The position numbers and the translations under genes are program-made. Below the pieces are notes generated by a model. That model was not told the origin of the DNA. It did no database searches and saw only the letters and a program-made list of their open reading frames with translations. Positions 27,971 through 33,559 of a stretch of DNA of 33,559 nucleotides are shown here, piece by piece (within the stretch, counting starts at the first letter, position 1; every line of letters starts with the position of its first letter). Origin of the DNA: Acetobacteraceae bacterium. Its GTDB lineage: Bacteria > Pseudomonadota > Alphaproteobacteria > Acetobacterales > Acetobacteraceae. The stretch covers positions 1 to 33,559 of the forward strand of contig JAIYDD010000251.1 of the NCBI GenBank assembly GCA_027487675.1, given 5' to 3'.

Positions 27971-30559
27971 ATGCCGCGCAGCGCCGAGGGCCGGGCCGGG
28001 GGTGTGGTGGGCGATCGCCTCGCCGCGGCCGGCCGCCGCTTCGCCTCCCCCGCCGTCAAGCAGGCGATACGCCGAAGGCTGGCGGAGTTGGTCGCGCTGG
28101 CGCTGGTGGCGCTGGCGCTGCTCGGCGGCGTGGCGCTGGCCAGCTACGACCCGGCCGATCCCTCCTTCTCCACCGCCACCGCGCGGGCTGTCGGCAACCT
28201 GGCCGGGCCGGTCGGCGCGCATGCGGCGGATATCCTGCTGCAGGGCCTGGGCTACGCCGCCTGGCTGCCGGTGGCCTGCCTGATGGGCTGGGGCTGGCGG
28301 CTGGCGACCCATCAGGGCCTGTCGCCGCTGCCGCTGCGCATCGCCTGCCTGCTGGCCGCGCTGCCGCTGCTGGCGGGCAGCCTTTCGGTCCTGCCGCTGC
28401 CGGCCGGGGCGCCGGCGCCGGCCGGGCCGGGCGGCTTCATCGGGCCGCTGGCGACCGAGGCGGGGCTCGACCTGCTGTCCCGGCTGCTCGGCCCGGTCGG
28501 CGAGGGGATCGCGCATCTGGCGCTGTTCGGGCTGACGGCGCTGCTGGGCTTCGTGGCGCTCGGCCTGTCGCCCGGCGAATGGCGGCGCGCGGGCCGGGCC
28601 GCGGGCAGCGCGGTGGCGACCACGGCGGCCGGGGCGGGGCTCGCGGCGCGCGCCGCCGCATCCGGCGCGCGGCGCACCGGCCTGCCCGGGCGGATCGTCG
28701 GCGCGCTGGCCGCGCCCTTCCGCGCGCTGGGCGGCCTGGCGCGCCGCCGCGCCGCCCCGGTGCCGCTGGCCGATGTGCTGCGCCGCGCCGACGAGGCGGC
28801 GGAGGCCACGCCGCCCGCCGGCGCCGTCATCCGCCGGCGCGAGCCCGCCTTCGGCGTGCCGGTGGTGATGCGGCACGCCCCGCCACCCGTCGCCGGGGAA
28901 CCCGCCCTGCCCGCCGCCGCCCCCCGCGCCGGCGTGCCGGAGCCCGCGTCCCGCAAGCCCGCGCCGCCGCGGGTCGCCGACCGCGTCCAGCCGCCGAAGC
29001 CCAGCCCGCAATCCCGCCAGCCCAGCCTGCCCCTGCCCGACGGCACCTGGCACACCCCGCCGCTGTCGCTGCTGGCCGCCCCCCCGGCCCGCCGCGCCGC
29101 GGGCCCCTCCGAGGAAGCGCTGCAGGGCAATGCCCGCATGCTGGAGACGGTGCTGGAGGATTACGGCGTGCGCGGCCGCATCGTGGAGATCCGCCCGGGC
29201 CCGGTCGTGACGCTCTACGAGCTGGAACCCGCCCCCGGCACGAAGTCGGCGCGCGTCATCGGCTTGGCCGACGACATCGCGCGCAGCATGTCCGTCACCG
29301 CCGTGCGCATCGCCACCGTCCCCGGGCGCAACGTCATCGGCATCGAGCTGCCGAACGCGAAGCGGGAGACGGTGCTGCTGTCCGAGCTGCTCGGAGCCGA
29401 GGATTGGGCGCGCCATTCCGGCCGGCTGAACCTGGCGCTGGGCAAGGATATCGGCGGCGCGCCGGTGATCGCCGACCTGGCGCGCATGCCGCACCTGCTG
29501 ATCGCGGGCACCACGGGCTCGGGCAAGTCGGTGGCGATCAACACCATGATCCTGTCGCTGCTGTATCGCCTCAGCCCCGACGAGTGCCGCTTCATCATGA
29601 TCGACCCGAAGATGCTGGAGCTGTCGGTCTATGACCGCATCCCGCATCTGCTGGCGCCCGTCGTCACCGACCCGCGCAAGGCGATCGGCGCGCTGAAATG
29701 GACGGTGCGGGAGATGGAGCGCCGGTACCGGGCCATGTCGCAGCTCGGCGTGCGCAACATCGCCGGCTACAACGACAAGGTCGCCGCCGCCCGCGCCCGC
29801 GGCGAGGTGCTGACGCGACGCGTGCAGGTCGGCTTCGACCCGGAGACCAACAAGCCGCTCTTCGAGGACCAGCCGCTGGCGCTGGAGCCGCTGCCGATGA
29901 TCGTCGTCATCATCGACGAGGTCGCCGACCTGATGATGGTCGCCGGCAAGGACATCGAGGCGGCGGTGCAGCGCCTGGCGCAGATGGCGCGCGCGGCGGG
30001 CATCCACGTGATCATGGCGACGCAACGGCCTTCGGTCGACGTCATCACCGGCACCATCAAGGCGAACTTCCCGACGCGCATCAGCTTCCAGGTCACCTCG
30101 AAGATCGACAGCCGCACGATCCTGGGCGAGCAGGGCGCCGAGCAGCTGCTCGGCCAGGGCGACATGCTGCACATGGCCGGCGGCGGCCGCATCAGCCGCG
30201 TGCACGGTCCCTTCGTGTCGGATGCTGAGGTGGAAGCGATCGTCGCCGTGCTGCGCGAACAGGGCGAACCCGCCTATGTCGAGGAAGTGACCGAAGCCGA
30301 GGACGACGAGGACGGCGCCGGCGCCGCCGCCGGCCTGCTCGGCGGCAACACCGACGCCGAGGGCTCGCTCTACGACCAGGCCGTGCAACTGGTGACGCGC
30401 GAAGGCAAGGCGAGCACCAGCTTCGTCCAGCGCCACCTCGGCATCGGCTACAATCGCGCGGCCAAGCTGATCGAGCAGATGGAGAAGGAAGGCGTGGTCG
30501 GGCCTGCGAACCATGTCGGCAAGCGGGAAGTGCTGGCGCCGGGGCCGCGGGAGGAGTGA
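27971..30559 (+). CDS. ftsK: DNA translocase FtsK/SpoIIIE
   Basis: An 862-residue septal DNA pump that moves chromosome ends and activates dimer resolution at dif. N-terminal membrane helices occupy about 45-200; then comes a Pro/Ala/Arg-rich linker, the motor (Walker A GTTGSGKS at 513-520, [11 protein letters not shown], Walker [28 protein letters not shown]), and the C-terminal gamma winged helix (about 800-860: [39 protein letters not shown]) that reads KOPS sequences. The ATG at 27971 has AGGATGG 8 nt upstream; the ATG at 27959 is an alternative. Stop is directly next to the ATPase/Toprim module. Confidence 0.95.
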
Positions 30560-30564
30560 CAAGG

Positions 30565-31755
30565 TTGAGCAGCGCCCCCTCGTCGCGACGCCGGGCGGCA
30601 CTAAGGATCGCCCGTCTGCGGCTGCAGAACTGGCGGAACTTCCGTCGCGTCGACGTCGCGCTGGCACATCGCGCCTTCTTCGTCGGACCGAATGCGTCCG
30701 GGAAGTCGAACCTGCTCGACGCGCTGCTGTTCCTGCGGACTATTGCCATGACGGGCGGCGGCGGACTGCGCGCCGCCGTTGACCAGCGTGGCGGCGTCAG
30801 TCGCGTCCGGGCGCTTGCCGCACGCGATACGTCCGACGTCGTCCTCGAAGTCACGCTCGGAGAGAACGCAGACCAGGCGCTGTGGCGGTATGCGCTGGAG
30901 TTCAACGCCGCCCGCGGCGGCGCACCCGCCGTGAAGCGGGAGCAGGCGTGGAGCGGCGGCGAACTCGTACTCGATAGACCGGACCGCCGGGACCGTGACG
31001 ACCCGGACCGTTTGCAGCAAACCCATCTGGAGACGACATCGGAGAATGCACGGTTCCGCCCCCTCGCAGAATACCTGGCGGGCATCCGCTTCTTGCATGT
31101 AGTGCCGCAGTTGCTGCGCCATCCGCAACGTGTAGTCCTGCAACGCGACGACCCGTTCGGCACCGACCTGCTGGAGCGTGTGGCGCGGCTTCCCGAACGC
31201 CAGCGTGCCACGCGGCTCGACCGTATCGCGGAGGCGATGCGTGTGGCGGTCCCTCAGCTTGGCTCGCTGAAGCTGCACCCGGACGCGCGGGGCGTGCCCC
31301 ATCTCGTCGGCCATTTCAGGAACTGGCGTGCCACCAAGGCGCGACAAGACGAGGTGGATTTCTCCGACGGCACGCTCCGACTGTTCGGCATCCTCTGGTC
31401 CCTGACGGAGCCTGGCGGACCCCTTCTGATGGAGGAGCCTGAGCTGTCGCTTCATCCCGCCCTGGTCCGAAGGCTGCCTAGCCTGCTTCACAACATGCAC
31501 CGCCGCAGCGGGCGCCAGACGCTGATCTCGACCCATTCGGCGCCCTTGCTTGACGATCCGGGCGTCGAGCTCGACGAGATCCACATGCTCATCCCCGGCG
31601 AGAACGGGACCGAGGTCCGCAGCTGCGCCGACCGGCAGGATCTTGCCGCGCTGCTCGAGCGCGACGTGCCAATCGGCGAGCTGGTCCTCGCCGAGACGGC
31701 AGCCTCCGGGCTTCGCGGGCACGAGGACCTGCCGCTGTTCGCCGGGCGGAGCTGA
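30565..31755 (+). CDS. SMC/RecF-like AAA ATPase of a putative defence module
   Basis: A 396-residue ABC-type (AAA_21/OLD-like) ATPase. Its start is read as TTG at 30565, since GGAGGAG (30550-30556) is then 8 nt upstream; a GTG at 30556 would overlap the ftsK stop but with a site too close. Walker A GPNASGKS is at 41-48 after RIARLRLQNWRNF, the usual RecF-like opening. The signature-like FSDGTLRLFGILWSL, Walker B LLMEEPELSLHP (about 286-297) and the H-loop STHSAP (about 322-327) follow. The C-terminus ends GELVLAETA...DLPLF, typical of ATPases in two-gene units with small Toprim-like partners. Codon and base use is less GC-extreme than in ftsK. The partner gene starts 10 bp downstream. A role in anti-phage defence is inferred from family architecture. 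Confidence 0.85.
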   Translation: MSSAPSSRRRAALRIARLRLQNWRNFRRVDVALAHRAFFVGPNASGKSNLLDALLFLRTIAMTGGGGLRAAVDQRGGVSRVRALAARDTSDVVLEVTLGENADQALWRYALEFNAARGGAPAVKREQAWSGGELVLDRPDRRDRDDPDRLQQTHLETTSENARFRPLAEYLAGIRFLHVVPQLLRHPQRVVLQRDDPFGTDLLERVARLPERQRATRLDRIAEAMRVAVPQLGSLKLHPDARGVPHLVGHFRNWRATKARQDEVDFSDGTLRLFGILWSLTEPGGPLLMEEPELSLHPALVRRLPSLLHNMHRRSGRQTLISTHSAPLLDDPGVELDEIHMLIPGENGTEVRSCADRQDLAALLERDVPIGELVLAETAASGLRGHEDLPLFAGRS

Positions 31756-31765
31756 GGGGCGGACA

Positions 31766-32362
31766 GTGGAGGTGACGCTCGTCGGCGAGGGCGATCTCGA
31801 CATCGCCGTCGGCACCCGGCTACTTGGCGAGGCCGGCCTTTCGGTAGGGCAGGCACATGTCACTCGTGGTGACGGCACGCTCAAGCAGCGGCTGCCCGGA
31901 TATGCGGCCGCGTCGCAGCACAGGCCCTTCGTTGCCCTGCTTGATCTCGACCAGTGGAGCGGTTGCGTAGGCAACTTCGTGGCCACGCATCTGCCGAGCC
32001 GGCCGCCCTCCCTTCTCCTGCGTTGCCCGGTGCGCTCCATCGAGGCGTGGCTGATGGCGGACCGTGCTGGCCTGGCGCGCGCCGTCGGGCTGCGCGCAGG
32101 CGACCTCCCGCGCCGGCCGGAAGGCGTCGACTTTCCGAAGCGACTGCTTCTCGACGCCATCGCGCGACGCCGCCCGGCGGAGCGCGGCCGGCTCATCGCT
32201 AGGCTGCCGCCGCTTCGGCAAGGTCCCGAGTACAACCGACGCCTCGGGAGCTTCGTCGCCGAGCAATGGAATCCTACCGCGCCCGACGTGCTGTCGGCTT
32301 CGCCTAGCCTTCACCGCGCCATGCTTCGCTTCCGCGAGTTGGCGGAGAGGTTGAAGGGCTGA
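31766..32362 (+). CDS. Small Toprim-like partner protein (DUF4276/RloB-like)
   Basis: A 198-residue protein read from a GTG at 31766 with GGGGCGG upstream. The pattern is that of a compact Toprim-like fold: an early acidic GEGDLD (Glu8 in strand 1), then FVALLDLDQ (Asp60 and Asp62, DxD) as the metal site, and a conserved helix VRSIEAWLMADR (Glu93, Asp99) seen in small partners of AAA ATPases. The rest is Arg-rich. It is not clearly AriB (DUF4435), RloB or DUF4276, though it is similar in plan. In known systems this subunit is the nuclease, activated when the ATPase senses phage. Starts 10 bp after the ATPase stop, so they form one unit. Confidence is high for a real gene, moderate for the fold. 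Confidence 0.7.
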   Translation: MEVTLVGEGDLDIAVGTRLLGEAGLSVGQAHVTRGDGTLKQRLPGYAAASQHRPFVALLDLDQWSGCVGNFVATHLPSRPPSLLLRCPVRSIEAWLMADRAGLARAVGLRAGDLPRRPEGVDFPKRLLLDAIARRRPAERGRLIARLPPLRQGPEYNRRLGSFVAEQWNPTAPDVLSASPSLHRAMLRFRELAERLKG

Positions 32363-32370
32363 CGCGGGAC

Positions 32371-33183
32371 ATGGCCATACTGGCTGGTGCCGCCTTAACG
32401 ATGGCCCTGGGCCTGCTCGGCGCGGGCGCGGCGCTCTATGCCTTCCAGGACCGGCTGATCCACTTTCCCGATCCGGCGGCGCCGCCGGCGCCCGCCGCGC
32501 TCGGGCTGCGCGGCGTGCAGGCGGTGGAGTTGCGCACCGCGGACGGGCTCGCCCTGCTCGGCTGGCACCTGGAACCGGCAAGGGCCGATGCGCCGGTCCT
32601 GCTTTACCTGCACGGCAATGGCGGCAGCCTGCTGCACCGCGCCGGCCGCGCGCAGCGCTTCGCCGATCTCGGCTGGGGCGCGCTGTTCGTGCAGTGGCGC
32701 GGCTATGGCGGCAATCCCGGCAGCCCGTCCGAGGCCGGTCTGGCGCTGGACGCCGCCGCCGGGCTCGACTGGCTGGCGGCGCGGGGCGTGCCGCCGGCGC
32801 GGATCGTCGCCTGGGGGGAATCGCTCGGCACCGGGCTCGCGGTACGGCTGGCGGCGGAGCGGCCGGCGGCGCTCGGCGCGGTGGTGCTGGAATCGCCCTA
32901 CACCTCGATGCTCGACCTGGCGCGGCTGCACTACCCGATCCTGCCGAGCGGCCTGCTGCTGCGCGACCGCTTCGACAGCCTCTCGCGCATGCCGGAGGTG
33001 CGCGTGCCCGTGCTGATCCTGGTCGGCGGCCGCGACCGCCTGGTGCCCGCCGGGATGGGCCGGCGCCTGGCCGCCGCGGCCACCGCGCCCGTGCAGCTCT
33101 GGGAAGCCCCCGAGGCCGACCACAACGAGATCGGCCGCGCCGGCGGCATCGAGGCCGCCGCGGCGTTCCTGGCGCGCCGGTAG
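32371..33183 (+). CDS. Alpha/beta hydrolase of the BEM46/ABHD13 type
   Basis: A 270-residue serine hydrolase with one N-terminal membrane helix (about 5-24), so it is probably anchored with the catalytic domain outside. YAFQDRLIHFPDP and LLGWHLEPA are standard for this family; the oxyanion HGNGG, nucleophile GESLG (Ser near 152), LESPYTSM, catalytic Asp in VGGRDRLVP and His in EADHNEIG are all present. Substrate unknown. The ATG at 32371 lies 8 bp after the Toprim-like gene. An alternative ATG at 32401 would shorten the helix. It returns to the GC-rich codon use of the host, so it is probably not part of the module. Confidence 0.92.
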   Translation: MAILAGAALTMALGLLGAGAALYAFQDRLIHFPDPAAPPAPAALGLRGVQAVELRTADGLALLGWHLEPARADAPVLLYLHGNGGSLLHRAGRAQRFADLGWGALFVQWRGYGGNPGSPSEAGLALDAAAGLDWLAARGVPPARIVAWGESLGTGLAVRLAAERPAALGAVVLESPYTSMLDLARLHYPILPSGLLLRDRFDSLSRMPEVRVPVLILVGGRDRLVPAGMGRRLAAAATAPVQLWEAPEADHNEIGRAGGIEAAAAFLARR

Positions 33184-33417: not shown

Positions 33418-33559
33418 ATGCAGATTGCATCCGCCCTCATTTCGCGCTGGCCTGATGTGGTTGGCGCGATCTCTGAAGCGATCGATCTTGAAGCCACGGC
33501 ACGGACCAGCGGCGCGCTGGTGCGGCGGCGCGAGATCCGGACGGCCGAGCAGTTGCTCC
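33418..33559 (+). CDS. Partial transposase, N-terminal end (IS4-family-like)
   Basis: An open frame that runs off the window edge. The 47 visible residues include ASALISRWPDVVGAISEAID, LEATARTSGALVRRREI and RTAEQLL. This is the N-terminal pattern of IS4-type transposases: a helix, then an Arg-rich segment with RRREIRTAEQLL resembling the R-x-K-s-x-x-LL motif. It is less GC-rich than the host. The ATG at 33418 is used, but GTG at 33412 is in frame. The catalytic DDE residues would lie beyond the window, so it is unknown whether it is intact. Confidence 0.6.
   Translation, partial: MQIASALISRWPDVVGAISEAIDLEATARTSGALVRRREIRTAEQLL

Follow-up and report, generated by a model that had tools for sequence, protein, structure and literature searches.

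By their sequence matches, the two genes that follow ftsK in the window (the whole 33,559-nucleotide stretch of DNA that was analysed) are a copy of HEC-01, a candidate system already catalogued in PADLOC-DB. The upstream protein, A, is identified by PADLOC as HEC-01A (PDLC04180, E 5.1e-135, residues 17-384 of 399) and the downstream protein, B, as HEC-01B (PDLC04194, E 5.4e-39, residues 3-196 of 198; also PDLC04197 and PDLC04193). We consider that the pair is probably a horizontally acquired HEC-01 and a candidate anti-phage system, in which A, an OLD/AbiEii (AAA_21) ATPase, senses infection and B, a Toprim-like nuclease, is released or activated. The original prediction had described a candidate defence module of an ATPase and a Toprim-like protein, possibly an undescribed variant. 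The kind of module was right, with a Toprim fold of B that is likely rather than proven (the model of B is confident and has no PDB match at E <= 0.001), whereas the suggestion of an undescribed variant gives way to the PADLOC assignment.

We take the source of HEC-01 to be the 2024 bioRxiv preprint of Payne et al. (10.1101/2024.01.29.577857). The name HEC stands for Hma-embedded candidate, and PMC12988326 credits a 2024 preprint from Payne and co-workers with showing antiviral activity for several HECs, HEC-06 among them. HEC-01 itself has been recorded in a Desulfovibrio strain (PMC12724379). Our literature search returned no report of a test of HEC-01, although most of its results were left unopened and such a report may exist. 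The features of the pair and its surroundings are as follows.

30550 to 30554, forward strand: GGAGG, resembling a ribosome-binding site, within the 3' end of ftsK (sequence)
30560 to 32370, no strand assigned: span missing from three genomes of the same genus, G154, G157 and G095 (genome comparison)
30565 to 31755, forward strand: gene A, HEC-01A, ABC/AAA_21-type ATPase of 396 residues (PADLOC, Pfam, AlphaFold2, Foldseek)
30685 to 30708, forward strand: Walker A, GPNASGKS (sequence and alignment of A)
31360 to 31383, forward strand: ABC-signature-like FSDGTLRL (alignment of A)
31423 to 31458, forward strand: Walker B and following residues, LLMEEPELSLHP (sequence and alignment of A)
31528 to 31545, forward strand: H-loop, STHSAP (sequence and alignment of A)
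31766 to 32362, forward strand: gene B, HEC-01B, 198 residues, GTG start, distant DUF4276 relative and probable Toprim-fold nuclease (PADLOC, profile comparison, AlphaFold2)
31784 to 31801, forward strand: GEGDLD, with Glu8 just past the first strand (model and alignment)
31943 to 31951, forward strand: DLD within LLDLDQ, with Asp60 and Asp62 past the third strand (model and alignment)
32039 to 32062, forward strand: IEAWLMAD, with Glu93, Trp95 and Asp99, aligning with the HEFEALLFSD-type motif of DUF4276 (alignment and profile comparison)
32371 to 33183, forward strand: alpha/beta hydrolase, a chromosomal flank outside the system (Pfam Abhydrolase_1)

The two-gene arrangement that had first been noticed is borne out, with A at 30565-31755, the 198-residue B on the same strand after a gap of 10 bp, and every quoted motif present. 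An alternative start for gene A is the GTG at 30556 (30556-31755, 399 residues), which overlaps the ftsK stop; because the GGAGG lies 10 nt before the TTG at 30565 and 1 nt before this GTG, the TTG is the likelier start. When A was aligned with 15 relatives, giving 16 rows, G.NA.GKS was found in all 14 rows that reach Walker A, SDGTLR was identical in every row, and both EEPELSL and the H-loop TH were invariant in 16 of 16. Pfam assigns protein A to AAA_21 (106.5 bits, cut-off 27) and AAA_15 (51.2 bits), while its match to SMC_N is weak (30.2 bits, cut-off 40). The AlphaFold2 model of A has a pLDDT of 86.5, and a Foldseek search with it placed PtuA (Septu/retron) first among the matches listed, followed by Rad50 and condensin, with a best E-value of 3e-13. 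A PDB sequence search with A found the OLD-family nuclease 6p74 (E 2.1e-5), with GajA and PtuA following.

The Toprim layout is an alternating beta/alpha sheet in which a Glu follows strand 1 and a DxD follows strand 3. The AlphaFold2 model of B, which is confident (mean pLDDT 92.8), alternates strands and helices (strand 2-7, helix 10-22, strand 26-32, helix 36-49, strand 55-58, helix 68-75, strand 83-86) and places Glu8 after strand 1 and Asp60 and Asp62 after strand 3, as in that layout. The residues E8, D60, E93, W95, K125 and W168 are invariant in the 21 aligned pairs, and D62 is kept in 20 of them. A Foldseek search of the PDB with this model gave no match at E <= 0.001; among the 50 matches listed, the highest probability (0.84) went to the Toprim of RNase M5, 6tg6, but with an E-value of 0.16 and TM scores of 0.28/0.41, and response-regulator folds came next (probability 0.75). 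Comparing B by sequence with the PDB, either singly or as a 17-member profile, brought up nothing believable, the best scores being those of a thioredoxin-like protein at E 0.07 and of a PTS component at E 0.59. Judging from the predicted structure, B likely has a Toprim fold and is a candidate nuclease.

The family relationships of B are distant. A Pfam scan of the window B at E <= 1 matched no family, including DUF4276, RloB (PF13707), DUF4435 and HNH. When the 17 aligned B proteins were scanned with an E limit of 10, 15 of them matched DUF4276 (PF14103) weakly (best E 8.3e-7), the window B not being among them; two matched DUF3226 and one OLD-like_TOPRIM (E 0.3), also weakly. Against the curated DUF4276 cut-off of 30.2 bits, five HEC-01B relatives scanned singly scored 13-25 bits, all under it, and five weaker B relatives all matched, at 28-71 bits, with four exceeding the cut-off. 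A profile of the 17 B proteins aligned with one of 16 weaker relatives (99.1%, E 1.1e-18, 181 columns), with the E, DxD and ExW motifs in register; these 16, out of 29 weak loci, had been collected with the HEC-01B model, so that likeness to the B profile is expected. Against 15 regions found independently with the DUF4276 model, the B profile gave 91.6% (E 8.4e-7) over 43 columns, which centre on IEAWLMAD and leave the DLD motif outside, and the weaker relatives gave 98.7% against the same independent set. B therefore appears from these profiles to be a distant relative of DUF4276, which we take to be grouped with Toprim-like families, connected through intermediates and no plain member. Membership of B in RloB or DUF4435 was rejected, as it has no Pfam match to either and hhalign gave 0.7% against 15 RloB regions and 1.3% against eight DUF4435 regions (four further loci, L147 and L149-L151, were left out of the latter). 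Thus, the earlier view that B does not clearly match DUF4435, RloB or DUF4276 stands for the first two but has to be amended for the third. The identification as HEC-01 holds despite this weaker link because the PADLOC match is independent of DUF4276.

Two observations concern DUF4276 itself. By eye, 14 of the 15 classical DUF4276 regions (L155-L169, with L169 the exception) have no counterpart to the second Asp in the HEC-01B DxD (12 of these 14 have D-x-Y, L159 has D-Y-F and L161 has D-L-C), so the metal site may not be the same in the HEC-01B and classical DUF4276 branches. Elsewhere in the window's genome (contig C190, L154 2400-4391) there is a second pair of an ATPase and a small protein, in which a HEC-01A-like ATPase (103 bits) is followed by a 212-residue protein that scores 28.9 bits against DUF4276, just under the cut-off.

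The association of A with B was surveyed in 30 loci, with 24 weaker loci of the phylum (L094-L117) left out. Of the 23 loci whose B is strong (at least 149 bits), 22 have A immediately upstream in the same orientation; the remaining one, L011, starts inside B at the end of its contig. Among the other seven loci, four (L084-L087) carry a weak A and a weak B in tandem and one (L088) carries the ATPase alone; the Synergistales and Acetomicrobium hits (L013 and L014) were rejected as relatives, having a weak B and no A partner that could be seen. A relative of A with 41-52% identity adjoins the strong B in 15 of 16 relatives, two of these 15 being without the N-terminal part, and for this reason the motifs of A and B are not a product of chance. 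Over 21 full pairs, the window's included and two loci dropped for an A without its N-terminal part (L007 and L081), the distances of A and B correlate with r 0.77, a value that none of 5000 permutations reached and to which shared organism history may contribute, although the loci span several phyla.

The distribution of the pair is patchy. HEC-01B was found in 9 of 150 genomes of the family and in 45 of 398 of the phylum (six above 100 bits in each case, the window's genome counted), while within the genus it occurs in one of 15 genomes, the window's own, as does HEC-01A at E 1e-10. In three genomes of the genus (G154, G157 and G095) ftsK directly adjoins the hydrolase, with 11-18 bp between the matches, and nine more genus genomes gave only weak hydrolase matches. 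BLAST searches for A or B around ftsK in the 14 other genus genomes found neither. A fixed linkage to ftsK, which would have counted against the original prediction, is therefore refuted, and the same findings bear on a housekeeping role tied to FtsK or chromosome segregation, which the position of the pair directly after ftsK and the weak SMC_N match of A might suggest. We regard such a role as extremely improbable, since the pair is missing from 14 of the 15 genus genomes, its relatives adjoin unrelated genes, and its GC3 (0.81 for A, 0.79 for B) is lower than that of its flanks (ftsK frame 0.92, hydrolase 0.93). Of 26 other frames picked in the window, 19 have a GC3 of 0.90-0.97 and seven, which look like non-genes, one of 0.75-0.85; the score by which frames were picked itself favours high GC3. 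Protein A is 50% identical to its nearest relative in the same family and 42-48% to the other family members, and the Verrucomicrobia and Chloroflexi proteins are both at 48%, so that, apart from the nearest one, the family relatives are no closer to A than these. The pair was probably acquired horizontally.

Searches for B at E <= 0.001 in 50,697 phage records and in 72,556 plasmid records gave no match. Among IMG/VR viral contigs, the pair is present in two of the 12 stretches that match the pattern. On one of the IMG/VR contigs (L118 1-9119), genes resembling those of a terminase and a portal protein lie close to the HEC-01 pair. Phages or prophages may thus carry HEC-01 too.

Insertions at the junction between the ftsK 3' end and the hydrolase (window 30500-32400; L065-L069) vary within the genus, with HEC-01 in the window, a patatin-like gene in G153 and, in G151, an RTX/Hint gene at the least, while three genomes have none. 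On both sides of the RTX/Hint stretch lie copies of the ftsK 3' end that form a direct repeat of 55 nt (87%; L066 4143-4197 and 7025-7079), a pattern such as an integration site would leave; inspection of this insert by eye revealed no recognisable recombinase gene. Short partial copies of the ftsK 3' end are present elsewhere in G155 and G160. At the end of the window, an open frame at 33418-33559 is cut off by the contig edge; its 47 residues have no Pfam match, and elsewhere the genome holds a copy that is identical across 39 residues, together with two that are similar (44-47%), as would be the case for a transposon gene.

The neighbours of the pair were scanned in 22 loci, up to two per side, which gave 70 proteins, some of them perhaps no true genes; 36 families matched, and the counts given here are among the matches listed (the best 25 of the 36). 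Ten proteins had first been chosen by eye, and the scan of the 70 gave the same families. In L010 the pair has a type III methyltransferase gene, mod (E 6e-87), on one side and the type III restriction gene, res (E 4e-15), on the other; in L005 a type I methyltransferase gene begins just downstream; PDC-S39 adjoins the pair in L083, and PD-Lambda-2 genes are near it in L007 and L080. In all, six of the 70 immediate neighbours, in five of 22 loci, are confirmed as defence-type. The remaining neighbours are mostly ordinary by eye (carB, alaS, nifHDK, thiG, radA-like, parAB-like). Several matches were set aside: 'mad3', 'mad8' and 'AriA' all fell on one protein which, from a reading of its sequence, resembles an ABC-F ATPase, 'RTasRmuC' fell on a protein that likewise resembles RmuC, and no count was made of 'mad2' (4 of the 70 proteins, with one followed back to L009) or of the single matches to 'PDC-M05A', 'HEAT-ARM_XIII' and 'PD-Lambda-2_B'. 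Judged by eye, most relatives stand among ordinary chromosomal genes and not in defence islands, which speaks against a defence role. An association of HEC-01 with defence genes appears to exist but is not strong.

Two close genes with a patchy occurrence, isolated among housekeeping genes in many relatives, could also represent a self-maintaining module similar to a toxin-antitoxin system, in which a toxic B is neutralised by A and protection from phages is incidental. We judge this quite unlikely, as A retains the full set of ATPase motifs, which is unusual for an antitoxin. Moreover, in the similar PARIS pair, deletion of either gene is reported to be non-toxic (PMC9122126).

A defence role of the pair is likely, and we infer nuclease activity of B, its hold and release by A, and RNA as the substrate. 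A would bind ATP, oligomerise and keep B inactive, until a phage product or a DNA structure made during infection alters A; the altered A would free or activate B, which would cut nucleic acid through a two-metal site of E8, D60 and D62, with RNA, perhaps tRNA, more likely than DNA, and growth would stop before phage release. This sensor-effector reading fits the conserved ATPase and nuclease-type motifs, the fixed gene order and the co-varying distances of A and B. In PARIS, AriA is described as holding AriB, which phage triggers free to cut tRNA, and the active site of AriB as resembling that of RNase M5 (PMC12409363); the suggestion of an RNA substrate for B is an analogy drawn from its likeness to RNase M5 and AriB. 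The B protein might instead be an endonuclease within a stable complex that cuts invading DNA, as in OLD or Gabija, with A as a nucleotide- and DNA-sensing clamp and no release of B. Such a mechanism would suit PtuA and Rad50-type ATPases as the top folds for A among the matches listed, and DNA cutting has been reported for OLD-family proteins (PMC10568477), but the tie in sequence is weak, with the best OLD-like_TOPRIM match being that of a single member out of 17, and we consider it unlikely, though less so than the toxin-antitoxin-like module. The release or activation of B by A remains the reading that we prefer.

The window provides a further intact example of HEC-01, a catalogued candidate system for which no mechanism was found in the literature searched. 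The empty sites are evidence of gain, and the map of motifs (E8, D60, D62, E93 and the Walker lysine) makes the nuclease hypothesis testable. DUF4276 occurs in 33 of the 120 phylum genomes sampled, and through the tie between HEC-01B and DUF4276 results on one would bear on other pairs of an ATPase and a DUF4276-like protein, including the second one in the same genome. As a tentative proposal, with somewhat less than an even chance of being correct, HEC-01B and DUF4276 could form a large, little-studied branch of Toprim-type ribonucleases restrained by ATPases, as AriB is in PARIS. If so, many ATPase and DUF4276 pairs across bacteria would be translation-blocking defences.

Compared with other HEC-01 pairs, the window pair has the same gene order and near-contiguity, with no feature found that sets it apart; its A is 39-50% and its B 22-36% identical to those of the 20 other pairs compared. 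PARIS likewise consists of a gene for an AAA_15/21-type ATPase followed by one for a Toprim-like protein, and the PADLOC AriA model matches A with E 9.5e-29. The two-gene rule published for PARIS asks for AAA_15 above 32 bits or AAA_21 above 27 bits together with DUF4435 above 27 bits (PMC9122126); A exceeds both ATPase values, at 51.2 and 106.5 bits, whereas the window B has no DUF4435 match. OLD nucleases and GajA share the theme of an ABC ATPase with a Toprim domain, and the GajA and Old models match A weakly (E ~2e-15), but the window system is made of two separate proteins and, unlike Gabija, adjoins ftsK and an alpha/beta hydrolase with no GajB-type helicase partner. Septu and retron PtuA provide the top solved folds for A among the matches listed; the partner of PtuA is the HNH protein PtuB, whereas the window B has no HNH match in Pfam. 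The AbiL and RloB-type pairs also combine an ATPase with a small nuclease-like protein, and the AbiLi model matches A with E 3.6e-24, but B has no RloB match (Pfam; hhalign 0.7%). From DUF4276 the window B differs in having no Pfam match, and HEC-01B relatives scanned singly fall under the cut-off. The coupling of OLD-ABC ATPases to several types of nuclease has been presented as a theme of backup defences (PMC12839542), and HEC-01 fits this theme.
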